Below are positions 17,286-29,367 of a DNA stretch of 64,000 nt, in pieces. Below the pieces are notes generated by a model, which saw nothing but the letters and a program-made list of their open reading frames with translations, was not told the origin of the DNA and did not search any database. How positions within the stretch are numbered: position 1 is the stretch's first letter; every line of letters begins with the position of its first letter. A program made the translations under genes and the position numbers. Source of the stretch: Microbacterium sp. Yaish 1 (lineage in GTDB: Bacteria; Actinomycetota; Actinomycetes; Actinomycetales; Microbacteriaceae); assembly GCF_002245215.1 (NCBI RefSeq), contig NZ_NPMR01000002.1:62001-126000 (forward strand), read 5' to 3'.

Positions 17286-18294
17286 CCTCGACGTCTCGCG
17301 GGGCATCGCCCCGGGACTGGTCGCCAAGACCAAGAAGCGTCTCGTCGTGGCATCCGGTGGCTCGCACCCTGCGCTGTCGGCCGAGGTTGCGACTCAGCTC
17401 GGCACGGAGCTCGTCCCCACCGAGCACCGCACCTTCGCCTCGGGTGAGATCCTCACCCGCTTCGAGGTGTCGATCCGCGGCTGCGACTTCTTCCTCGTGC
17501 AGTCGTTCGGTCCTCCGGTCAACGAGTGGCTGATGGAGACGCTGATCATGCTGGATGCCGCCAAGCGCGCATCCGCCAAGCGCATCACCGTCGTCGCGCC
17601 GTACTACCCGTACTCGCGCCAGGACAAGAAGGGTCGCGGGCGCGAGCCCATCAGCGCCCGCCTCGTCGCCGACCTGTTCAAGACGGCCGGCGCCGACCGC
17701 GTGATGAGCGTCGATCTCCACGCGGCGCAGATCCAGGGCTTCTTCGACGGTCCCGTCGACCACCTGTTCGCCAAGCCGGTCCTGCTCGAGCACTTCGAGC
17801 GCACGCTGACCCCGGAGGACCGCGAGAAGCTCACCGTCGTGTCGCCCGACACCGGCCGCGTCCGCGTCGCCGACACCTGGTCCGACAGCCTCGGCGCTCC
17901 GCTGGCCATCATCCACAAGCGTCGCGACCCGAATGTCGCCAACCAGGTCACCGTCAACGAGATCGTCGGTGACGTGCGCGGGCGTGTCTGCCTGCTGGTC
18001 GACGACATGATCGATACCGGTGGCACCATCGTCAAGGCCGCGCAGGCCCTGAAGAACAACGGCGCCGAGCGGGTCATCGTCGCGGCGACGCACGCCGTCT
18101 TCAGCCACCCGGCAGTCGAGCGCCTGCAGGATGCCGCGATCGACGAGGTCGTCGTCACCGACACGATCCCGCTCGGTGACGACAAGCGGTTCCCGGGCCT
18201 CACGATCCTTCCGATCGCCCCGCTTCTGGCGCGCGCGATCAAGGAGGTCTTCGAGGACGGCTCCGTCACCAGCATGTTCGACGGCGCCGCCTGA
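17260..18294 (+). CDS. prs: Ribose-phosphate pyrophosphokinase
   Basis: PRPP synthetase transfers pyrophosphate from ATP to ribose 5-phosphate, feeding purine, pyrimidine, NAD, histidine and tryptophan synthesis. The enzyme has 344 residues, a little longer than the usual 315-325 because of a charged N-terminus. TVVAPYYPYSRQDKK (about 110-124) is the ATP-binding flexible loop region, VDLHAAQIQGFF carries the metal-binding His, and LLVDDMIDTGGT (245-256) is the PRPP-binding motif. The ATG at 17260 lies inside glmU in another frame, after GGAAGCGG. The glmU-prs pair is conserved in many bacteria. Confidence 0.96.
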   Translation: MARKKNTVDLDVSRGIAPGLVAKTKKRLVVASGGSHPALSAEVATQLGTELVPTEHRTFASGEILTRFEVSIRGCDFFLVQSFGPPVNEWLMETLIMLDAAKRASAKRITVVAPYYPYSRQDKKGRGREPISARLVADLFKTAGADRVMSVDLHAAQIQGFFDGPVDHLFAKPVLLEHFERTLTPEDREKLTVVSPDTGRVRVADTWSDSLGAPLAIIHKRRDPNVANQVTVNEIVGDVRGRVCLLVDDMIDTGGTIVKAAQALKNNGAERVIVAATHAVFSHPAVERLQDAAIDEVVVTDTIPLGDDKRFPGLTILPIAPLLARAIKEVFEDGSVTSMFDGAA

Positions 18295-18443
18295 CTCGAC
18301 CTGACCGCGGCCGTCTTACCCGGTGGGCTGGCCCCGGCGGGGCTGGCCCGGCGGGCCGACTGTCCCGTCATCAGGCTCGATGCCCACGCGGCACACGGGG
18401 ATCTTCTCCGGCGGGCTCCGGTGTTTCGCAAAGCCGCGCGCCG

Positions 18444-18449
18444 TAGGAT
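18444..18449 (+). promoter_or_regulatory. -10 hexamer TAGGAT of the P-type ATPase gene
   Basis: TAGGAT ends seven bases before the ATG at 18457. The gap has no ribosome-binding site, fitting a leaderless transcript and fixing this start over possible upstream ones. Confidence 0.6.
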
Positions 18450-18456
18450 CGGCCCC

Positions 18457-21162
18457 ATGGCTGCCCCTGTCTCCGAGGCGGACCTCGAGTCGCCTCGCTC
18501 CTACGCTCACCCCGTCGACGAGGTCGCTGCGGCGCTCGGGACCAGTGCCGACGGCCTGAGCTCGGATGAAGCCGCGCGGCGTCTCGACGCGGCGGGGCCG
18601 AACGTCCTTCCCGAGGGCAAACGCACCCCCGCGTGGCTGCGGTTCCTCTCGCACTTCAACGACACCCTGATCTACATCCTCCTGGCCGCCGCCGCGATCA
18701 AGGCGGTCATGGCGGACTGGCTCGATGTGTGGGTGATCCTCGCCGTCGCGATCATCAACGCGGTGATCGGGTTCGCCCAGGAGGGACGTGCCGAGAAGGC
18801 TCTCGCGGGCATCCGCGGCATGCTGTCCTCGGAAGCGAGCGTCCGCCGTGACGGTTCCTGGCGGAGTGTGCCCGCCGCCGAGCTCGTACCCGGCGACGTC
18901 GTGCGCCTGTCGCCGGGCGACAAGGTTCCGGCCGACCTCCGGCTCGTCCAGGCGAGCCAGCTGCGCATCGACGAGGCGGCGCTGACGGGCGAGTCGGTCC
19001 CGGCGTCGAAGCAGACCGATCCGGTCGACGCGGATGCCGGTGTCGGCGATCGGGCGTCGATGGCGTTCTCCGGCACGATCGTGTCGGCGGGACAGGGCCG
19101 CGGGATCGTGACGGGCACGGGCGCTCGTACCGAGATCGGCAAGATCCAGGCGCTGGTCGGCGGCGCCGGAGCCCTGACGACGCCTCTCACGAAGCAGCTC
19201 GACGCGTTCGGGCGGGTCCTGACCCTCGTCATCCTCGGCATGGCGGCCGCGATGATGCTCATCGGCCGATTCGTGCACGGGATGCCGTTCGGCGAGCTCG
19301 TCTCGGCCACGATCGGTTTCGCCGTGGCGGCGATCCCGGAAGGGCTGCCGGCGCTCGTGACGATCACGTTGGCGATCGGCGTCCAGCAGATGGCCCGGCG
19401 TCGCGCCATCACGCGGAAGCTCCCCGCTGTCGAGACCCTGGGCTCGGTGACGACCGTCTGCTCCGACAAGACGGGCACGCTGACCAAGAACGAGATGACG
19501 GTGCGACGGATCGTCACCCTCGTCGCCCGTTACGACGTCTCGGGGCTGGGCTACGAACCGGTGGGCGAGATCGAGCGCACCGACGGGGACGGGCGTTCCG
19601 GCGGTGATCTGTCGGCCGTCCTCGCCGTGGCGGACCTCTGCAACGACGCGAACGTCGTCTCGGATGACGACGGCTGGAAGCTTGTCGGTGAGCCGACCGA
19701 GGGTGCGTTGCGCGTCGTGGCGATGAAGGGCGGACACGACGGCGAGGCCGACGGCGTCCGGCGGGTCGACGTGCTCCCGTTCGACTCGGAGAACAAGTTC
19801 ATGGCGACCCTGAACGAGGGTGCCGACGGCTCGCGCGCCCTCCTCGTCAAGGGCGCGCCCGACCGGCTGCTGGACCGCTCCACGCGCCAGCGCGGGGCCG
19901 CGGGGCCGGAGGAGCTCGACCGCGAGTTCTGGGAGGCGGCCGTCGCCGACCTGAGTGCCGAGGGCCTGCGCGTGCTCGCCGCCGCGCGCAAGCCGTCGCG
20001 CCTCGACGAGGTCGGGATCGATGACGTCGACGAGCTGGAGTTCCTCGGCCTCTGGGGGATTCTCGATCCCCCGCGCCCCGAGGCCGTCGAGGCGATCGCC
20101 GACTGCCACCGTGCCGGCATTCGCGTGAAGATGATCACGGGCGACCACGCGGGGACCGCCGTCGCGATCAGTCGCGAGATGGGGCTGGTGTCGGACGACG
20201 AACCCCGCGTGCTCACCGGCGGCGAGCTCGAGTCGCTCAGCCAGGAGAAGCTGAAGGATGTCGTCCGCGACGTCGACGTCTACGCCCGGACGAGCCCCGA
20301 GCACAAGATCCGCATCGTCCGTGCGCTCCAGTCGCACGGCGAGGTCGTCGCGATGACGGGTGACGGCGTCAACGACGCGCCCGCCCTCACCCGCGCGAAC
20401 GTGGGGGTCGCGATGGGCATCAAGGGCACGGAGGCGACGAAGGAAGCCGCCGAGATCGTGCTCGCCGACGACAACTTCGCCACGATCCGTTCCGCGATCC
20501 GCGAGGGGCGCCGGATCTACGACAACCTCCGCAAGTCGATCGTGTTCCTGCTGCCCACCAACGGGGCGCAGTCGCTCGTGATCCTCGTCGCCGTCGTCTT
20601 CGGGTTGGCGCTGCCGCTGTCTCCCGTGCAGGTGCTGTGGGTGAACATGGTCACAGCGGTGACGCTCTCGCTCGCCCTCGCGTACGAGCCGGCCGAGCCG
20701 GGGATCATGTCGCGACCGCCCCGGTCGAGCGGAGGATCGATCATCTCGCTGCGCGAACTCCTGTTCGTGCTCGTCGTGTCGGTGATGATCGGCGGAGCGA
20801 CGCTCGCGGCGTTCGCGATTGTCCGAGCAACGGGCGCCGAGCTCGACGTCGCCCGGACGGTCTCGGTCTCCGTACTCGCGCTCGGACAGCTGGCGTTCCT
20901 GTTGAACTGCCGGTTCTTGAGCCGCTCGAGCGTGACCCGAGACGTCCTGCGCGGCAACCGGGTCATCTGGTTGTCGGCTGCAGCCCTCGTCGGCCTGCAG
21001 CTCGTCTACACGTACGTGCCGTTCATGAACGCCCTGTTCGACTCGCGGCCGCTCTCGGTGCAGGCGTGGCTGCTGCCGCTGGGTTTCGCGGTGGCGATCT
21101 TCTTCGCCGTCGAAGGGCTGAAAGTGCTGTGGCGCGCATCTGAACTCGATGCAAACGCATAG
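18457..21162 (+). CDS. Cation-transporting P-type ATPase (P2-like, calcium/cation type)
   Basis: A 901-residue membrane pump. In order it has the N-terminal cation ATPase domain, two early membrane helices (about 65-110), the actuator loop with LTGES near 178, the IPEGLPALV ion-site helix near 295, the phosphorylation motif [10 protein letters not shown] with D337, KGAPD for nucleotide binding, and the hinge [12 protein letters not shown] near 645. About six C-terminal helices follow, one with [22 protein letters not shown] points to the P2 calcium/cation group rather than heavy-metal P1B pumps, and there is no N-terminal metal-binding domain. The transported ion is not certain. A TAGGAT -10 box sits seven bases before the ATG. 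Confidence 0.9.
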
Positions 21163-21195
21163 GAACAACAGAGGGGAGCCATGGCGACGGCCCGC

Positions 21196-21201
21196 TAGCG
21201 T
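21196..21201 (+). promoter_or_regulatory. -10 hexamer TAGCGT of the flavin electron-transfer operon
   Basis: TAGCGT is part of CGCTAGCGTGAGA, identical to the word at 9662-9674. Transcription would begin near 21208, giving a leader of about 40 bases that ends with a strong AGGAGG at 21238-21243, seven bases before the ATG. Confidence 0.5.
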
Positions 21202-21250
21202 GAGATCAGCCCACCTCCCCCCGGAGGGGCACGACACAGGAGGACCCGTC

Positions 21251-21745
21251 ATGATCCGCGCCACTGCCGTACCCCGTTCGCTCCGCGTGACCGCCGCCGC
21301 GGCATCCGTCGCCGGCCTCGCCCTCCTCGCCGGCTGCGCCGGGCAGGCCGAAGCCGAGCAGCCCGCCTCGGGCGCGGGGCCTTCCGCCGACGCGACGACC
21401 CAGTCCGGTTCGGCCGGTTCGGCGGGATCGTCGGGGGCGACCGGTGGCACCTACACGGACGGCACGTACACGGCGGAGGGGACCTATCAGACCCCCGAGG
21501 GCCCCGAGACGATCACCGTGAAGCTCACGATCGCGTCTGACGCCGTGACCGCGGTCGAGGTCACCGGCGAGCCGACCCGCCGCGAGAGCAAGCAGTACCA
21601 GTCGCAGTTCATCGGCGGCATCTCGGACGCCGTCGTCGGCAAGAGCCTCGACGACGTGAAGGTCGACCGCGTGGCGGGCTCGTCGCTCACGAGCGGTGGC
21701 TTCAACGCGGCGGTCGAGGAGATCCGCACCGACGCGGCGGCATGA
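21251..21745 (+). CDS. FMN-binding domain lipoprotein
   Basis: A 164-residue secreted lipoprotein. Residues 1-29 are a signal peptide with lipobox LLAGC (C29). Residues 35-66 form an Ser/Gly/Ala linker. Residues 67-160 form an FMN_bind domain, with YTDGTYTAEGTYQTPEG and TVKLTIASDAVTAVEV at its start. The segment DRVAGSSLTSGG from D139 matches the position of the DxxSGA(T/S) flavinylation site, with S145 as the likely covalent FMN acceptor (variant: A-G-S in place of S-G-A). The next gene encodes the ApbE transferase that would attach FMN. Expected to sit outside the membrane as a redox carrier. Confidence 0.87.
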   Translation: MIRATAVPRSLRVTAAAASVAGLALLAGCAGQAEAEQPASGAGPSADATTQSGSAGSAGSSGATGGTYTDGTYTAEGTYQTPEGPETITVKLTIASDAVTAVEVTGEPTRRESKQYQSQFIGGISDAVVGKSLDDVKVDRVAGSSLTSGGFNAAVEEIRTDAAA

Positions 21746-22614
21746 TCGCCGCGACTGCCGGCTTCGGGCGGTGGGAATTCGGCGCCATCGGAACCGCATG
21801 GTGCGTCGACAGCGAGGTGCCGCTGCGTGACGACGATCGGGCAGCTGTCATGTCGCTCGTGGAGACGTTCGACCGGGACTGGTCGAGGTTCCGCCCGGAC
21901 TCGACCGTGAGCCGGGTCGCGGCCGGCGGGTCGGTCGCGGCGCCTCCTGACGCGGCAGCCATGCTGGCGCTGTACGGCGAGCTGGCCGACGCCACGAACG
22001 GCTCGGTCAACCCGCTCGTCGGCGACGCGCTCGCGCGGCGCGGTTACGACGCGTCGTACTCCCTGCGCGATCGCGGCGCGCTGGCTGCGCCGGACCGGTG
22101 GCGCGACGTCATCGAGCTGGCGGACGACCGCCTCACGCTCCACAGCCCGGCGACGATCGACGTGGGGGCCGTAGGCAAGGGTCGCCTCGTGGATCTCGTG
22201 ATGTCGGAGCTGCGGCGGCGCACGCCCGGCTGGCTCGTCGTCGACGCGAGCGGCGACCTCGCGATCGACGGGGTGCGGCAGCGTGTCGCGCTCGAGCACC
22301 CGTATGACGCGTCTCGGGCCGTCGGAGTCTGGACGCTGGACGTCGGGGCGCTGTGCGCCTCCGCGACCAATCGTCGAGCGTGGGGCGATGGCCTGCATCA
22401 CGTTCTCGACGCCCGCACGGGCGAACCGGTTCGGGAGTACGCGGCGACGTGGGCGGTCGCTTCGGACGCGATGACGGCGGATGCCGTCGCCACAGCCCTC
22501 TTCTTCGACGGCGGCCCGCGCTTCGCGGAGCGCAGCAGGGCTTCGTGGGTGCGGATGCGCACCGACGGATCCGTCGAATGGTCACCCCACTGCGAAGCGG
22601 AGTTGTTCGTATGA
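21742..22614 (+). CDS. apbE: FAD:protein FMN transferase (ApbE family)
   Basis: A 290-residue ApbE-type enzyme that uses FAD to attach FMN to a Ser or Thr of partner proteins. TIDVGAVGKGRLVDLVM, WLVVDASGDLAIDG and the metal-site region SDAMTADAVATALFF are the family landmarks. No signal peptide or lipobox is visible; many ApbE proteins carry one, so the place of modification is unclear. It overlaps the FMN-binding lipoprotein by four bases (ATGA) and the reductase by four. The lipoprotein is the obvious substrate. Confidence 0.9.
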   Translation: MIAATAGFGRWEFGAIGTAWCVDSEVPLRDDDRAAVMSLVETFDRDWSRFRPDSTVSRVAAGGSVAAPPDAAAMLALYGELADATNGSVNPLVGDALARRGYDASYSLRDRGALAAPDRWRDVIELADDRLTLHSPATIDVGAVGKGRLVDLVMSELRRRTPGWLVVDASGDLAIDGVRQRVALEHPYDASRAVGVWTLDVGALCASATNRRAWGDGLHHVLDARTGEPVREYAATWAVASDAMTADAVATALFFDGGPRFAERSRASWVRMRTDGSVEWSPHCEAELFV

Positions 22615-24158
22615 CATCCCTGACGGCCCTTTGGAACCGCGTCGTCGGCGCGCTCGGACGCGTGTCGATGTACCGGTTCGTCCTCATGGCGCTCTCCGTG
22701 CTCGCGGTCATCGCCTTCGTGCTGACCGTCGCCGGTCAGATCGCGGGCGATCCGCTCGCGCTCCCGGTGTCGCTCGTCGTGCTGGCCGCCGCGATCATCG
22801 TGGTGGATGCCGTGGCGCAGCGGCTGCTCGGCCGGACGTGGCGCATCGAATCGGCGGTCATCACCGCGCTCATCCTGCTGTTCGTGCTGCGCCCGACGCT
22901 CGATCCGGCGGGGCTCGCGGGGCTCGCCGTCGCCGCTGCCGTCGCTTCCGCATCGAAGTACCTGCTGGCCTGGCGCGGGCGGCACATCTTCAATCCCGCC
23001 GCGGCGGGCGCGACCGTGCTGACTGTCCTCAGCATCCCGTTCCCCGACCTGGGCGCGTCGGCCTGGTGGGTGGGTTCGCCCGTTCTCGCGGTGCCCGTCA
23101 TCCTGCTCGGCGGTCTCGTGCTCGTGCGCACGGAGAAGGTGCGCGTGGTCGCGGTCTTCCTCGTCGTCGCGGTCGTCGTCGCGCTCGTGCGGACGTTCGT
23201 GCAGTACTCTCAGGTCTCGCTCCCCGTCGATGCGACCGTCATCGGGCAGGTGCTGTGGTCGTCGCCGTTCCTCTTCCTGGGTGCGTTCATGCTGTCGGAG
23301 CCGCTGACTCTTCCGCCGCGTCGGAGGCAGCAGTACGCGGTCGCCGCGCTGGTGGGGGCACTGGCCGGCTGGCCGATCCTCATCGGTGACGTCAGTCTCG
23401 GACAGGAGCGTGCGCTGCTGATCGGCAACCTGCTCGCGTTCTTCTTCGCCTACCGCGCGGCGGTGCGGCTGACCTTCGTCGAACGCAGGGCGCTGACCCC
23501 CTCCGTGCGGGAGCTGACGTTCCGCGCTCATCGTGGCTTCCGATTCCGTCCCGGACAGTACCTCGAGCTCGAAGTGCCGCATCGCCGGCCCGACGCGCGG
23601 GGCACGCGGCGCGAATTCTCGATCGTTTCGGCGCCCGCGGAGCTGCCGGAGGTGCGGATCGCCATCCGCGAGGGGTCGCAGTCGAGCTACAAGAAGGCCC
23701 TCGCCCTCGTTGAACCCGGCCGCGATCTTCCCGTGACGGGCGTCTGGGGCGACTTCGTGCTGCCCGCGCGGACGGAGGCCAAGGTGCTGCTGGTGGCGGC
23801 GGGGATCGGCGTGACGCCGTTCGTGTCGCAGCTGCGCGAGATGCGGCTCGCGGGTGAGCAGCGCGACGTCGTCATGATCTATGTCGCGTCGGATGCCGAG
23901 GAGCTGGCGTTCCGCGACGACATCATCGCCGCGGGCATCCCGGTGATGGTGGTGACGCGGAATGAACCTCGGAACCTTCCCGACCATTGGCGATGGACCG
24001 GGGGAGAGCGGCTGAGTGCGGCTTCCCTGGCGGGCCTCGTGCCGGACCTCAACGAGCGGCACGCGTTCATCTCGGGTCCGCCTCGGCTCATCGCCGACCT
24101 CGCCCCCGCGCTGTCGAAAGCCCGATCGCTCACCACCGATGCGTTCGCCGGCTACTGA
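22611..24158 (+). CDS. RnfD/NqrB-like membrane domain fused to ferredoxin-NAD(P)H-reductase-like domain
   Basis: A 515-residue fusion. Residues 20-285 contain about nine or ten hydrophobic segments resembling NqrB/RnfD, with HIFNPAAAGATVL near 125-137 recalling the family's conserved N-P-A element. Residues 290-515 form a flavin reductase domain: FRPGQYLEL, the FAD motif RREFSIVSAP (about 331-340), the NAD(P)-binding AAGIGVTPFVSQL (about 395-407) and FISGPPRL near the end. No ferredoxin domain is attached. The domain order suggests electrons from NAD(P)H cross the membrane to the FMN lipoprotein encoded two genes upstream. It is coupled to apbE by an ATGA overlap. Confidence 0.85.
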   Translation: MTSLTALWNRVVGALGRVSMYRFVLMALSVLAVIAFVLTVAGQIAGDPLALPVSLVVLAAAIIVVDAVAQRLLGRTWRIESAVITALILLFVLRPTLDPAGLAGLAVAAAVASASKYLLAWRGRHIFNPAAAGATVLTVLSIPFPDLGASAWWVGSPVLAVPVILLGGLVLVRTEKVRVVAVFLVVAVVVALVRTFVQYSQVSLPVDATVIGQVLWSSPFLFLGAFMLSEPLTLPPRRRQQYAVAALVGALAGWPILIGDVSLGQERALLIGNLLAFFFAYRAAVRLTFVERRALTPSVRELTFRAHRGFRFRPGQYLELEVPHRRPDARGTRREFSIVSAPAELPEVRIAIREGSQSSYKKALALVEPGRDLPVTGVWGDFVLPARTEAKVLLVAAGIGVTPFVSQLREMRLAGEQRDVVMIYVASDAEELAFRDDIIAAGIPVMVVTRNEPRNLPDHWRWTGGERLSAASLAGLVPDLNERHAFISGPPRLIADLAPALSKARSLTTDAFAGY

Positions 24159-24188
24159 CCTCGCAGCCTGCCCGGATCCGACACGCGC

Positions 24189-24204
24189 CTCGGCCCTCGC
24201 CGAG
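24189..24204. terminator. Possible terminator hairpin after the flavin operon
   Basis: CTCGGC-CCTC-GCCGAG forms a six-base-pair stem with a four-base loop in the space between convergent genes. The stem is short and there is no U tract, so this is tentative. Confidence 0.35.
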
Positions 24205-24265
24205 TCCGTCAGGTGAGTTCGGCGCCCGTCGCTCTTCGCGGCCCGTCCCGAGATCGCTCGATTCC

Positions 24266-25670
24266 TCAGAAGGGTGGCGGTTGTCCCGGCGGTGGTCCGC
24301 CGGTTCCGGCATCCGGTGGCGGATCGGCGGTGTCGACGGTGAAGCACACCGCCGGTATGGGGACGTCTTCGCGGTAGACCCGGCCGAGGGGTGAGGTCCA
24401 TTCGAGGACCCCGCCGCCGACCTGTCGGACTTCCCACTTGGTGAATTGCTTCATCGAGTGGTGCCTTTGGCAGAGGTGGGCGAGGTTGAAGATGTGGGTG
24501 TGCCCGCCGAGGGCGTGGTCGATGGTGTGGTCGAGTTCGCATCGGATGGCGGCTCGTCGGCATCCGGGGAACCGGCAGTGCTGATCCCGGGCGGTGAGGA
24601 GTTTCTTCATCGATGCGGTGGGCCGGTAGGTGTCGATCTCGACCGGGGTTCTGGTGACGGGGTCGATGAAGAGCCGGTCCCATTCGCTGACCTGCCCGGC
24701 GAGCTGTCGCGCCGTGTCGGCGTCGATCAGCGCGCCCCCGACTGCTTCGGCGGGGTGCTCGTCGCGCCCCATCAGGGTTTCCGCGGTGACGGCGACTTGC
24801 ACGCGTGCTCGGATCGCGCCGAGCCCACCGGCCCGGTCGGTGCCGTAGGTGGGGTCGACGACGGGTGCTCCGCCGAGGACGAGGTCTCCGAGGATGTCGG
24901 CGCGCAGCTGATCCATCGTCCGCGTGTCGGCGGGCTCGTCTGCGCCCGCGGTATCCGGTCCACTAGCCGCCCCGGCACCGCCAGCATCCGCCCCCGGCAC
25001 CACCAGCGCCCGCCGCCCGGGCGTCCTTGACGGACTGTCCCATCTGCGTGAGCCGGTCGAGCATCCCCACCGCGATCACGGTCGGGACGGTCGCGATGAC
25101 ATCCGACATCCCGTCCGCGCCGTGCGAGACCCGCACGCACCGTCCGGCGGCGGCTTCGCGGTGCCGGTCGGTGAACGTGCGCTCGTGCAGCCTCTCAGCC
25201 AGGGACCGCAGGGCCGGTCTCACCCGGGTGGCGATGTCGCGCTCGCACACCGCGATCGCCGCGACCTCGAACTCGCCCCGCACCTCATCGGGCAGCCCGG
25301 TTCCCGCTGTGACGACCGCGTCGACGTGGTCGCGGGTGATCCGCCGCTCCTCCCATGCCGCGAACACGGTGGGGTAGTCGTCGACGACCGTCAGCGCATG
25401 GTCGATGTCGGCCTGCAGGCGCCTGTCGGTCCGCCGGGCAAGCCCCGCGGCTTCGGCTGCGACCGACCGCAACTCCATGTCCGACGCCATCCCACGCACT
25501 CCTTCACGGCGCGCCTCACGCAACGCGGACCGGCCCAGCTCGGCCAGAGCCCGCACCGACGCGACCTCCGCGTCATGCACCAGCGCGAGCGCCTCGCCGT
25601 AAGCCGCGATCGCGGGACCGTGCGGCGAGACCTCGATCTCGTCCGAGCCGCCACCCCTGTTCGCTGACAT
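24266..25670 (-). pseudogene. DUF222/HNH endonuclease (13E12-type), interrupted by a frameshift
   Basis: The N-terminal half (25670 down to about 24995) and C-terminal half (about 25000 to 24266) are open in different frames and together make one DUF222/HNH protein of about 467 residues, a normal length. The C-terminal half holds CRFPGCRRAAIRCELDH and HIFNLAHLCQRHH, the HNH nuclease motif. The frames join if one G is dropped from the GGGGG run at 24991-24995 (CCCCC on the plus strand). This could be a true frameshift or a sequencing error. These multicopy proteins are of unknown function and may be mobile. A CACAAT hexamer six bases before the ATG resembles a leaderless promoter. Confidence 0.8.
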
Positions 25671-25772
25671 GTTCCCATTGTGGCAGCGGCGTCAGACATT
25701 CAGATCGAAGAAAGATGCGATGTGCAAACCCCGTCGCGCCCCGACCCTGGGGAGGACCGAACGTTGCTGTGC

Positions 25773-25821
<49 letters not shown>

Positions 25822-25851
25822 CGCGAGCGCTCGATCAGCGTTCCGCCGTCG

Positions 25852-27537
25852 TTACGGTCGATCCGTACCGGAGCCCGCATCGCCGGCCGCACCCGACGCC
25901 GACCCGGCAGCCGCCCCTGATCCGGCATCCGACCCTGATCCGGTACCCGACCCCGGCCCGACATCCGACCCCGCCCCGATATCCGATTCCGACCCCGCGT
26001 CGGCTCCCGCGGCCGAACTCGACCCCGACCCGGGATCGGCCGGTCGCGCGGTCAGGCGCAGCTCGAACGTGGTCGATCCGGGTTCGCTCTGCACCGTGAG
26101 CGAGCCTCCGTGCGCCGCGACGATGGCGCGGGCGATCGAGAGGCCGAGGCCCGTGCCGCCCGTCTGCCGTGCGCGCGAGCTGTCGCCTCGCGAGAAGCGC
26201 TCGAAGATCTCATCGACGACGGCAGGGTCGATGCCTGGGCCGTCATCGTGCACCGACAGGATCGCCGTCCCGTCGGCGACGCGCACCGCGGTGGTGACGG
26301 TCGTTCCGGCGGGAGTATGGACGCGGGCGTTGGCCAAGAGGTTCGCGACGACCTGCGTGATGCGGGTGGCGTCCGCCGCGACGACGACCGGTTGGTCACC
26401 GACATCCAGCCGCCACTCGTGGTCCTGTCCCGCTGCGCGCGCGTCGGCCACGGCGTCGATCGCGAGCGCGGTGAGGTCGACGGTTCCGTAGACCAGCTCC
26501 TGCCCTTCGTCGAGACGCGCGAGGAGCAGCAGGTCTTCGACGAGGCTGGTCATGCGCAACGACTGCGCCTGAATGCGCTCGAGCGCGGCGGTCGTGGTCT
26601 CTTCGACCCCGGGCACGCCCTGCCGCATCGCGCGAAGCGAGAGCTCGGAGTATCCGCGGATCGAGGCGAGCGGTGTGCGAAGCTCGTGACTGGCGTCCGC
26701 GACGAACGACCGCATGCGCTCCTCGTTGCGCTGTCGTGCGACGAGGGATTCGTCGACGTGGTCGAGCAACGTGTTGAGGGCGGCTCCCACGCGGCCGATC
26801 TCGTCGTGGTCGTCCGTCTCCTCCGCGGGAACCCGCTCGGTGATCGAGACAGCGCCCTGTGAGAGGGGGAGCGATGCCACCCGCGTCGCGGTGTCGGCGA
26901 CGACGCGCAGCGGCCGCAGCGAACGCTGGATGACGACCGCGATCGCTGCGCTCAGCAGCAGCAGGCCGCCGATCGTGACGATCGCGATCGTCGTGACGAC
27001 GGTCGCGACGGTCGTGTCTACCTGGGCGAGCGGCAGCGCCCCCAGTCCCGTGATGTCGCCGGCTTTGAACGACACGACGCGGAACGCGCCGAGATCACCG
27101 ATCTCGATCGTCGCCGGGAGGGCGCTCAGGTCTGTCGAAGCCAGACCGTTCAGCTCGGCGGCCGTGAGGCTGCGCACTCCCTCCTCGCCGTCGAAGGTCG
27201 CGCCGGTGACCGGACCGCGTGGGTCCTGCACGAGCAGCGTGTAACCGTAGGGGAGTCCCGGTGTGCCCGCGATCGTCTCTTCCGCCGACCGTGCTCGCAC
27301 GACGTAGCCGCTGCTGTCGAACAGCTTGAGGCTCCGGGTGAGCGACTCGGTGTTCGTGTCGACGGTGGAGACCAGAACGGTCCCGATGGTGGTGGCGAGT
27401 CCGACCGCACTCGCGATCAGCGTCAACGCGACGACGCTGACCACCGTGAGCATGAGCCGCGTCTGCAGCGTCCAGCGCTTGCGGGGCTGCCGATCCGCGC
27501 GTCCGCGCGCAGCGGAGCCATCCGGGGAGGGCGTCAC
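25852..27537 (-). CDS. Two-component sensor histidine kinase (TcrY/MprB-like)
   Basis: A 561-residue membrane kinase. TM1 lies near 26-50 (LMLTVVSVVALTLIASAV), followed by an extracytoplasmic domain (about 55-175), TM2 near 180-205, a HAMP linker (SLRPLRVVADTATRVASLPL) and the HisKA domain with H284 in SHELRTPLASIRG. The ATPase domain has N box VVANLLANARVH, G1 DDGPGIDP and G2 GGTGLGLSIA. After FELRLTARP the last 65 or so residues are a repetitive Gly/Ser/Asp/Ala tail with no known domain. The GTG start overlaps the response-regulator stop. The signal is unknown. Confidence 0.92.
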   Translation of the reverse strand: MTPSPDGSAARGRADRQPRKRWTLQTRLMLTVVSVVALTLIASAVGLATTIGTVLVSTVDTNTESLTRSLKLFDSSGYVVRARSAEETIAGTPGLPYGYTLLVQDPRGPVTGATFDGEEGVRSLTAAELNGLASTDLSALPATIEIGDLGAFRVVSFKAGDITGLGALPLAQVDTTVATVVTTIAIVTIGGLLLLSAAIAVVIQRSLRPLRVVADTATRVASLPLSQGAVSITERVPAEETDDHDEIGRVGAALNTLLDHVDESLVARQRNEERMRSFVADASHELRTPLASIRGYSELSLRAMRQGVPGVEETTTAALERIQAQSLRMTSLVEDLLLLARLDEGQELVYGTVDLTALAIDAVADARAAGQDHEWRLDVGDQPVVVAADATRITQVVANLLANARVHTPAGTTVTTAVRVADGTAILSVHDDGPGIDPAVVDEIFERFSRGDSSRARQTGGTGLGLSIARAIVAAHGGSLTVQSEPGSTTFELRLTARPADPGSGSSSAAGADAGSESDIGAGSDVGPGSGTGSGSDAGSGAAAGSASGAAGDAGSGTDRP

Positions 27538-28265
27538 TGCGGAGCTTTGATCATGTAGCCCACACCCCGGACGGTGTGGATGAGCGGCTCGCGACCGGCA
27601 TCGATCTTCTTGCGCAGGTACGAGATGTACAGCTCGACGACCGAGGAGCGCCCGCCGAAGTCGTAGTTCCAGACGCGGTCGAGGATCTGCGCCTTCGACA
27701 CGACGCGCCGCTGGTTGCGCATGAGGTAGCGCAGGAGCTCGAACTCGGTGGCGGTGAGTTCGATGCTCGTGCCGGCGCGCTCGATCTCGTGCGAGTCCTC
27801 GTTGAGCGTGAGGTCCCCGACACGGAGCACGGGGTCGGCGCCGCCGGCGGTCGCGGTTCCGGCGCGTCGCATGAGGCCCCGCAGCCGCGCGACGACCTCC
27901 TCGAGGCTGAAGGGCTTCGTGACGTAGTCGTCGCCGCCCGCCGTGAGCCCCGCGACGCGGTCGCCCACGGAATCCTTCGCGGTGAGGAACAGCACGGGAA
28001 CATCGTCACCCGACTGGCGCAGCCGCTGCAGCACCGACATCCCGTCGAGGTCGGGCATCATGATGTCGAGCACCATCGCGTCGGGTTCGAACTCCCGCGC
28101 CATCGAGAGGGCCTCGAAACCGGATGCCGCCGAGCGGACCTCCCACCCTTCCATCTTGAGCGCCATCGAGAGCAGATCGGTGAGCATCTGCTCGTCGTCG
28201 ACGACGAGGACGCGCAGCGGAGAGCCGTCGGGACGCTGCAGGGTGGCGGGTGCTGGGGTGGTCAT
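27534..28265 (-). CDS. Two-component response regulator, OmpR/PhoB family
   Basis: A 243-residue DNA-binding response regulator. The receiver domain (about 17-130) has VVDDEQ, the phospho-acceptor D67 in MVLDIMMPDLDG, the switch Thr in FLTAKD and K117 in VTKPFS. The C-terminal winged helix (about 145-243) includes ELTATEFELLRYLM, RSSVVELYISYLRKKID and HTVRGVGYMI. It is the first gene of the operon with the kinase. A CACAAT -10 box six bases before the ATG implies a leaderless mRNA. Three CTATG repeats at 28287-28314 overlap its -35 region and are probably its own binding site. Confidence 0.94.
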   Translation of the reverse strand: MTTPAPATLQRPDGSPLRVLVVDDEQMLTDLLSMALKMEGWEVRSAASGFEALSMAREFEPDAMVLDIMMPDLDGMSVLQRLRQSGDDVPVLFLTAKDSVGDRVAGLTAGGDDYVTKPFSLEEVVARLRGLMRRAGTATAGGADPVLRVGDLTLNEDSHEIERAGTSIELTATEFELLRYLMRNQRRVVSKAQILDRVWNYDFGGRSSVVELYISYLRKKIDAGREPLIHTVRGVGYMIKAPQ

Positions 28266-28271
28266 GATGCC

Positions 28272-28277
28272 ATTGTG
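28272..28277 (-). promoter_or_regulatory. -10 hexamer CACAAT of the response-regulator operon
   Basis: CACAAT on the minus strand ends six bases before the ATG at 28265. The same hexamer at the same distance precedes the HNH gene at 25670. Confidence 0.5.
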
Positions 28278-28286
28278 AGGCGTTTT

Positions 28287-28314
28287 CTATGGAGAAGCTA
28301 TGGGCGACGCTATG
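28287..28314. promoter_or_regulatory. Three CTATG direct repeats, likely response-regulator operator
   Basis: CTATG starts at 28287, 28298 and 28310, at 11- and 12-base intervals, about one helical turn. OmpR-family regulators typically bind such head-to-tail repeats. The site lies in the divergent space between the response-regulator gene and corA and covers the -35 position of the former. Confidence 0.55.
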
Positions 28315-28341
28315 TCTGAGCTGTGAGCATGCGCGGTGGCA

Positions 28342-28347
28342 TACGGT
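28342..28347 (+). promoter_or_regulatory. -10 hexamer TACGGT of corA
   Basis: TACGGT ends six bases before the ATG at 28354. This favours that ATG over the in-frame GTG at 28336, which lies upstream of the hexamer. Confidence 0.5.
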
Positions 28348-28353
28348 GACCTC

Positions 28354-29367
28354 ATGACGAACGTTGAGACGGCGGTCTACGTCGACGGCGCGATGGCGGG
28401 CGACGGTCTCCCGCCGGCAGAGGCGGCCGCGCTCGCACGAGAGCGGGACGGGTTCGCGTGGATCGCGCTGGTCGATGTCGACGACGCCGCGCTCGAGTCC
28501 CGCGCGATCGAGCTGGGCGTGCCTCCCATCGCGGTGAAGGAGGCGCTCCGGCCCCACCAGCGGTCGATCTTCGAGCGCTACGGGGATCACGCGTTCGTGG
28601 TGCTGCAGCCCGCGCACTACGACGACGCCTCCGAGACGGTGCGCTGCGATGAGATCGACGTCTTCCTCGCACCTCACCTCATCGTGACCGTCACGCGGTC
28701 GGATCGCATCGACCTCGCCCAGCTCCGCGAGCGGCTCCAGACGCATCCGCAGCTTCTTCGTCGGGGACCGGCATCCGTCATGTGGGTGCTCGCCGAACTC
28801 GTCACGACCGGTTACCGTGCCGTGCTCGACGGTGTGGAGAACGACATCGATGAGATCGAGGACCAGCTGTTCGGCGACGACCCCGGAGTGTCGAGGCGCA
28901 TCTTCGACCTGCAGCGGGAGGTGATCGACCTCGCTCACGCCACGACGCCCCTGCCGGACGTCCTGACGCGGCTCGGTTCGACCCTCACGGATGCCGCGGC
29001 GGGCGCGGAGCCGGCCGGATGGGACGACGTCCGAGGCCGCGCGCAGTACGTGGCGGAGCGCGTGCAGTCGATGCGCCACACGCTCGACGACGCACTGACG
29101 ATTCACGCGACTCTCGTCAACCAGCGGCTGGACGAGAAGATGGCCGACCTCACCGTCGTGCAGGTGCGCCAGAACGAACAGGTCAAGAAGATCTCGTCCT
29201 GGGCGGCGATCGGATTCGCCCCGACGTTCGTCGCGAGCGTCTACGGCATGAACTTCAGGTTCATGCCCGAGCTCGCACAGCCGTGGGGATACCCGATGGC
29301 ACTCGGGCTGATGGTGCTCCTGAGCGCCGGTCTCTACGGCATCTTCAAGCGCAACGACTGGCTCTGA
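28354..29367 (+). CDS. corA: CorA family magnesium/divalent cation transporter
   Basis: A 337-residue CorA-type channel protein that would assemble as a pentamer in the cytoplasmic membrane. The large N-terminal cytoplasmic domain (1-270) has the acidic/helical stretch VENDIDEIEDQLFGDD and the long stalk helix ending VVQVRQNEQVKKISSW. Two C-terminal membrane helices flank the selectivity motif YGMNF (297-301), with the family's short periplasmic loop MPELAQPWG. The ATG at 28354 follows a TACGGT -10 box by six bases. A strong hairpin lies between it and convergent gndA. Confidence 0.93.
   Translation: MTNVETAVYVDGAMAGDGLPPAEAAALARERDGFAWIALVDVDDAALESRAIELGVPPIAVKEALRPHQRSIFERYGDHAFVVLQPAHYDDASETVRCDEIDVFLAPHLIVTVTRSDRIDLAQLRERLQTHPQLLRRGPASVMWVLAELVTTGYRAVLDGVENDIDEIEDQLFGDDPGVSRRIFDLQREVIDLAHATTPLPDVLTRLGSTLTDAAAGAEPAGWDDVRGRAQYVAERVQSMRHTLDDALTIHATLVNQRLDEKMADLTVVQVRQNEQVKKISSWAAIGFAPTFVASVYGMNFRFMPELAQPWGYPMALGLMVLLSAGLYGIFKRNDWL

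Follow-up and report, generated by a model that had tools for sequence, protein, structure and literature searches.

Among the flavin-dependent electron transfer systems described in bacteria, those closest to the locus treated here have been named NQR/RNF-like systems (Meheust et al. 2021, PMC8238504; Huang et al. 2024, PMC11334425). As described there, a membrane domain resembling NqrB and RnfD is fused to an NAD-binding reductase, and the fusion occurs within flavinylation gene clusters together with an extracytosolic partner resembling NqrC and RnfG. One-way electron flow has been proposed for these systems, which are found mainly in Actinobacteria and candidate phyla (PMC8238504, PMC11334425), and 127 such clusters were counted by Meheust et al. 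(2021, PMC8238504). The present analysis concerns a three-gene cassette in a stretch of 64,000 nucleotides from Microbacterium sp. Yaish 1 (contig NZ_NPMR01000002.1, positions 62,001 to 126,000; the whole stretch is called the window below). The cassette encodes, on the forward strand, an FMN_bind lipoprotein (P0001), an ApbE protein (P0002) and a membrane-reductase fusion (P0003). It probably belongs to this published kind and exports electrons in one direction without further components, ApbE loading the carrier with flavin mononucleotide (FMN).

The three genes overlap, the ApbE gene starting at 21742 and the fusion gene at 22611, in both cases within an ATGA that also contains the stop codon of the preceding gene. 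An earlier note on this DNA had proposed three coupled genes, and open reading frames (ORFs), overlaps and Pfam families all agree with this. P0001 matches FMN_bind with 24.8 bits (cut-off 22) and P0002 matches ApbE (PF02424) with 113.5 bits (cut-off 25.6). The first half of P0003 matches NQR2_RnfD_RnfE (PF03116) with 34.7 bits (cut-off 27.7), and its second half matches reductase families, NAD_binding_1 (PF00175) reaching 20 bits, slightly below its cut-off of 22. The suggestion that the genes stand under one promoter is less well supported: a sigma-70 promoter scan, which is blind to other promoter types, found none, and only 88 bases separate the lipoprotein ATG from the end of a P-type ATPase gene that precedes it on the + strand. 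No Rfam family matched positions 18000-28500 at gathering scores.

The structure of the fusion was modelled by AlphaFold2 from a 41-sequence alignment (pLDDT 93.4, pTM 0.89) and compared with known folds using VIA-align 2. The membrane half resembles RnfD (8rbq_D, Z 23.0, root-mean-square deviation (rmsd) 4.3, 256 residues aligned; 9eri_D, Z 22.5) as well as NqrB (8a1t_B, Z 22.2, rmsd 3.6, 251 aligned). A single sequence of this half found no match among the PDB sequences, while its profile matches RnfD 8ahx_D in two collinear blocks (chain residues 32-142 and 222-329); the E value of 3.1e-5 rests on the second block, the first being insignificant by itself. Structure prediction and profile search thus both bear out the assignment of this half to the RnfD/NqrB type, and an unrelated permease fold is ruled out by the same matches. 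RnfD residues 143-221, the stretch that contains the covalent FMN site of RnfD, are without counterpart in the profile alignment. The motif D..[ST]GA[ST] is absent from all 41 fusions of the alignment. The membrane domain of the NQR/RNF-like systems has been described as lacking the covalent FMN site conserved in NqrB and RnfD (Huang 2024, PMC11334425).

The second half of the fusion had been read as a flavin reductase, rightly so, since residues 279-512 or thereabouts take the fold of the NqrF FAD (flavin adenine dinucleotide) domain (8ad0_F, Z 22.8, rmsd 2.9, 226 aligned). This places a C-terminal NAD-binding domain on the same chain as the membrane domain. The reductase fold is a common one; many other reductases match it as well, with a best Z of 24.9, and the first 50 Foldseek rows hold reductases and related chains only. 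The earlier note also regarded the single-chain fusion as a replacement for a multi-subunit complex and as less described. The former is consistent with the genome, where no match to PF02508 was found, but the latter is wrong, as this is the known NQR/RNF-like system. At a threshold of 1e-3, the Pfam models pick up PF03116 in 19 of the 41 fusions and PF00175 in 34. Because many parts of the cassette fall under Pfam thresholds in this way, the published count of 127 clusters is probably too low.

The fusion is present in 75 of 79 Microbacterium genomes (one, G448, as a partial match) and in 44 of 100 genomes of the family, the genome of strain Yaish 1 being included in both samples. With 75 of 79 genomes carrying the fusion, the export of electrons by flavins in one direction seems to belong to the core of the genus and not to be a rarity. 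In the phylum sample the full-length fusion was found in 5 of 296 genomes, while the other 54 of the 59 matching genomes align only from about model position 240 on, that is, over the reductase part. Genomes of family f12 in the phylum sample (L163-L175) contain proteins like the reductase half only. Among named genomes, 80 loci out of 423 relatives were kept for the analysis; among the matches listed are Microbacterium, Arthrobacter, Agreia, Aeromicrobium, Nocardioides, Cellulomonas and others, and they extend to Saccharibacteria, further candidate phyla and Dictyobacter.

These 80 loci and 45 from the family, all fetched because they carry the fusion, gave 125 loci, and 103 of them have the order FMN_bind, ApbE, fusion, in Actinomycetota and candidate phyla alike. 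Six of the remaining loci are without an ApbE match, five without an FMN_bind match, six hold the fusion alone and five have another arrangement or failed the spacing rule; some of the 125 stop at contig ends. All these counts are of loci and not of independent events, because some genomes enter twice (for example L039/L108, L049/L112 and L063/L156). Taken with the frequency of the fusion in the family, the linkage of the three genes is more than chance.

Judged by its family and its conserved catalytic residues, P0002 is an ApbE FMN transferase. The published catalytic triad is matched through alignment, and among 113 cassette ApbEs the conservation is 1.00 for S207, 0.99 for H220, 0.99 for D247 and 0.98 for T251. 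It has neither the signal peptide nor the lipobox of an exported lipoprotein ApbE. The first ATG, GTG or TTG of its frame is at 21742, and the domain motif FGAIGT starts 12 residues on. ApbE N-termini were searched by a rule that accepts any ATG, GTG or TTG up to 60 codons upstream and scores the best 13-residue Kyte-Doolittle window, with 1.8 as threshold; this is a hydrophobicity measure and not a trained predictor, and the start codons are set by rule. No hydrophobic N-terminal segment was found in any of 112 cassette ApbEs, that of strain Yaish 1 included (of the 125 loci, 11 are without an ApbE match and two without an aligned N-terminus). Nor was one found in 64 other ApbEs, which comprise 30 from the best-scoring loci of the family, 14 further ones from the family (20 loci, six without a match) and 20 hand-picked, hence not random, ones from class and phylum (L268-L287); four of the 64 (L210, L211, L281 and L283) are cassette ApbEs again. 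The same rule detects such a segment in 22 of 27 positive controls, the best-scoring ApbEs of the phylum sample, five being below the threshold and three more unaligned. An earlier rule gave a median extension of 10 residues ahead of the motif (n=95 ApbEs with a start codon), with one, L058, above 1.3 in an 11-residue window. Leaderless ApbEs next to membrane-anchored FMN_bind-like proteins also occur outside the cassette (L218-L237, L268-L287), so the combination may be common to the class as a whole.

In a tree of ApbE sequences, 106 cassette ApbEs cluster with L206, L210, L211 and L281 (support 0.707), and this main group does not include seven others with low scores, which come from candidate phyla and Dictyobacter. 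L206 (348 bits) is an in-trans copy: the Amnibacterium cassette (L063, L156) is without an apbE match, and this cassette-type ApbE is encoded elsewhere in the genome (G016). Outside the cassette, a motif search of 40 loci with leaderless ApbEs found neighbouring FMN_bind-like proteins with hydrophobic N-terminal segments in 18, L286 being a weak case.

The missing leader, which the earlier note did not mention, makes the usual assumption of external FMN transfer doubtful. The same exporter could still be loaded from outside if ApbE left the cell by a non-classical route and flavinylated the lipoprotein there. A review describes ApbE as typically membrane-anchored outside the cell and acting on secreted targets (PMC12052999), and FmnB and other ApbEs have been described as extracytosolic (PMC9973259). 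This placement is nevertheless unlikely here, as the leaders that mark most of the same-phylum controls are absent from the cassette ApbEs and from the others, and as no ATG, GTG or TTG start is possible upstream of 21742 in the Microbacterium gene. We know of no unconventional export route for ApbE.

The proposed carrier has the lipobox LAGC with C29, as the earlier note had it. The P0001 model has a pLDDT of 78.5, with blocks of 90-98 within the domain part. It is most similar to domain 2 of SaFMN3 (8p2a, Z 10.8, rmsd 2.0, 87 of 89 residues). The match to NqrC (8a1t_C, Z 8.3) is less clear; because IscU and lipoyl-ligase chains reach the level of NqrC (Z 7 to 8.4), only 8p2a stands clear. 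A lipobox was found by rule in 100 of 114 carriers. Among the 14 others, ten are from candidate phyla and have an N-terminal membrane segment, and two have a cut or doubtful N-terminus.

S145 of P0001 is the predicted FMN acceptor. It lies six residues past D139, and in sequence alignment it falls on the Thr of the SGAT motif of 8p2a, a solved FMN_bind domain (E 0.0056), so that the earlier proposal of this residue gains support. The column is identical in at least 90% of 35 aligned relatives. Among 114 relatives having an FMN_bind match, 113 fit the motif pattern, and L109, which is without the Gly, does not. The acceptor is Ser in 111 and Thr in two, and 18-20 residues separate it from the C-terminus; the presence of this letter is no evidence by itself, as the pattern demanded Ser or Thr. 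The published ApbE motif is D-x-x-[S/T]-G-A-[S/T], in which replacing the Asp mattered little in a mutational study cited with it (PMC12052999). P0001 has D-R-V-A-G-S-S and does not match it: Asp, Gly and acceptor are kept and two positions depart from it, a point that was overlooked before. By this comparison of sequences the acceptor motif GSSLT is unusual. The residue before the acceptor is Ser in 104 and Ala in nine of the 113 relatives, and it tracks the type of ApbE: it is Ser in 101 of 103 carriers with a cassette-type ApbE and Ala in four of four with another ApbE (Fisher p 3e-6, uncorrected for relatedness, L109 excluded). As motif letter and ApbE type go together, ApbE and lipoprotein are supported as enzyme and substrate.

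Alternatively, the lipoprotein might not be covalently flavinylated at all; ApbE would then act on a different protein, a cytosolic one, and the FMN_bind domain would either bind FMN only loosely or have no activity. The two departures from the published consensus would fit this, and so would the leaderless ApbE of Klebsiella, which modifies a cytosolic fumarate reductase (PMC12052999). The linkage of the three genes across most loci, the conserved column of S145 and its covariation with ApbE type speak against it, as does the Amnibacterium genome, which keeps a cassette-type ApbE although its cassette has none. In the genome of strain Yaish 1 there is one ApbE match and one Pfam FMN_bind match, and a DUF2271 search gave no match; the exported lipoprotein is thus the only substrate that these families show, bearing in mind that Pfam FMN_bind misses many relatives. 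A loosely bound or absent FMN is therefore rather improbable, slightly more so than external loading, and the lipoprotein is likely to bind its FMN covalently. That the cassette is left over from a complete NQR or RNF pump, or accessory to one, is very improbable: the folds do match RnfD/NqrB, NqrF and NqrC/RnfG, but the genome has no match to PF02508 (NqrD/E, RnfA/E) at E <= 0.001, and the same minimal set recurs across genera and phyla.

As to where FMN is attached, two loading routes have been described, export of the folded holoprotein by twin-arginine translocation (Tat) and Sec export followed by loading outside, and an ApbE outside the cell requires exported FAD (PMC9973259). Among 100 carriers with a located lipobox, six have a strict twin-arginine motif and 15 any RR. 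The signal of P0001 has no RR, although TatC is encoded in the genome. Tat export of a folded holoprotein was rejected on these grounds, and Sec is the likelier route because twin-arginine motifs are rare in the carriers. Neither published route accommodates a Sec-type carrier that is paired with a leaderless ApbE. Seven residues are enough for flavinylation by ApbE (PMC12052999), and the Sec channel is about 16 angstrom wide by simulation and 22 by experiment (PMC5963308), which makes loading of the C-terminal motif in the cytosol before translocation plausible. As the cassette ApbE is leaderless, the cytosol is on balance the likelier site of attachment, at a time before the lipoprotein leaves by Sec or while it does so. 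For the class Actinomycetes and these cassettes in general it may tentatively be proposed that a cytosolic ApbE flavinylates the carrier at a motif some 19 residues short of its C-terminus and that the chain then passes Sec unfolded.

Several observations weigh against this interpretation of the cassette. The motif of P0001 is without the canonical Ala before the acceptor and without the Ser or Thr three residues before it. The Asp at position -6 is kept in P0001 but in just 27 of the 113 relatives (the others have Ser in 64, Thr in 15, Gly in five, His in one and Asn in one). Pfam FMN_bind catches only 13 of the 45 cassette lipoproteins of the family, so another, divergent FMN_bind protein could be encoded in the genome. 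Seven of 102 cassette ApbEs have no ATG, GTG or TTG near the domain, so that their starts are unplaced, and in L058 the ApbE domain follows an acidic repeat of weak hydrophobicity (11-residue window score 1.51). Finally, the signals look Sec-type, and as Sec takes unfolded cargo, a chain already bearing flavin would need to pass through it without folding. Should a leaderless ApbE nevertheless load the carrier before export, this would be a third way of loading cofactors into exported proteins, besides the Tat holoprotein and external loading after Sec. An FAD exporter would no longer be needed, and both the accepted site of flavinylation and the question of FAD export would change for a large bacterial class.

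In the proposed mechanism the cytosolic reductase domain would pass hydride from NAD(P)H to FAD, and the membrane domain of the same chain would move the electrons outward via a non-covalently held flavin to the lipoprotein FMN, the lipoprotein being anchored at the outside of the membrane. ApbE, encoded between the carrier and the fusion, would attach this FMN to S145. An outward direction of electron flow is very likely. The lipoprotein FMN would then reduce an acceptor, for which ferric iron, a quinone or an envelope protein are candidates. Iron is a fair guess: six published NQR/RNF-like clusters contain a VIT1 iron transporter (Meheust 2021, PMC8238504), and in Bifidobacterium breve, a different system, an FMN_bind gene (sifE) and apbE were found in an iron-limitation screen (PMC5449479).

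The neighbouring genes scanned include no conserved partner pointing to the acceptor. Eight of ten neighbours in the window have a Pfam match at 1e-3 (glmU-like, prs-like, P-type ATPase, DUF222, sensor kinase, response regulator, CorA and 6PGD), and ten neighbours from ten other loci (of 157 neighbour ORFs) show no common theme, one being without a match. The kinase and regulator are a possible regulator of the cassette; outside L078-L101 the pair is matched at 1e-15 in two loci, the one described here and one more. The glmU- and prs-like genes flank the other side of the cassette in 17 and 20 of the 24 loci L078-L101. The DUF222-type gene is perhaps frameshifted; besides its own locus its two frames have close matches only in L078 (97 and 92 percent), and in four loci of the Arthrobacter clade the first part gives matches of 35-42 percent.

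Table 1. Positions in the window of the cassette genes, their parts and adjacent genes.
Feature	Positions	Strand	Basis or remark
AGGAGG, likely ribosome-binding site of the lipoprotein gene	21238..21243	+	sequence
P0001, FMN_bind lipoprotein, 164 aa	21251..21745	+	ORF, Pfam and model; ATG 21251, TGA 21743-21745
Parts of P0001			signal residues 1-28; lipobox C29; low-confidence linker ~30-70; FMN_bind domain ~71-164
S145 codon, predicted FMN acceptor in DRVAGSSLTS	21683..21685	+	alignment to the 8p2a SGAT Thr; column conservation
P0002, ApbE FAD:protein FMN transferase, 290 aa	21742..22614	+	without signal peptide; S207, H220, D247, T251 conserved
P0003, fusion, 515 aa	22611..24158	+	last base of the stop codon at 24158
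Membrane domain of the fusion, residues 1-283, RnfD/NqrB-like	22611..23459	+	Pfam, model, fold, profile
C-terminal FAD/NAD(P)H reductase domain of the fusion, residues 284-515, NqrF-like	23460..24158	+	no 2Fe-2S family matched
P-type cation ATPase, directly upstream	18421-21162	+	matched in 9/24 loci L078-L101
Sensor kinase and response regulator, downstream, convergent	25852-27537, 27534-28265	-	21/24 and 21/24 loci L078-L101
DUF222-type gene in two overlapping frames	24266-25003, 24963-25670	-	first ORF matched, second not

Compared with the Na+-NQR and RNF complexes, the cassette shares the RnfD/NqrB fold, the NqrF-like reductase fold and the NqrC-like FMN domain. Those complexes consist of several polypeptides, whereas here membrane and reductase domains form one chain, with no PF02508 match in the genome and no 2Fe-2S domain matched. 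The Listeria FmnB/PplA system likewise has an ApbE-type transferase and a flavinylated extracytosolic carrier, flavinylation being a prediction for the cassette, but FmnB is extracytosolic and needs exported FAD (PMC9973259), while the ApbE of the cassette is without a signal peptide. This last property is shared with the cytosolic ApbE of Klebsiella pneumoniae, whose reported target is a soluble fumarate reductase and not, as presumed here, an exported lipoprotein; intracellular ApbEs are also known from trypanosomatids (PMC12052999). No report of leaderless ApbEs paired with exported carriers in Actinobacteria was found in titles and abstract openings, a search that left subscription papers, preprints, figures and supplements largely outside; the novelty in print of this point is accordingly unproven, and Figure 4E or the supplements of Meheust 2021 may show the predicted location of ApbE. 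The closest likeness is to the NQR/RNF-like systems, which are defined by the fusion lying at most five genes from ApbE or FMN_bind genes, at least one of them with a signal peptide or lipidation site, and the cassette has this arrangement, with C29 as the lipidation site. The fusion itself is thus not novel, having already been described under that name. The accessible text of the papers on these systems does not mention a leaderless ApbE or the GSSLT motif, and it is these two points that raise a clear, testable question.

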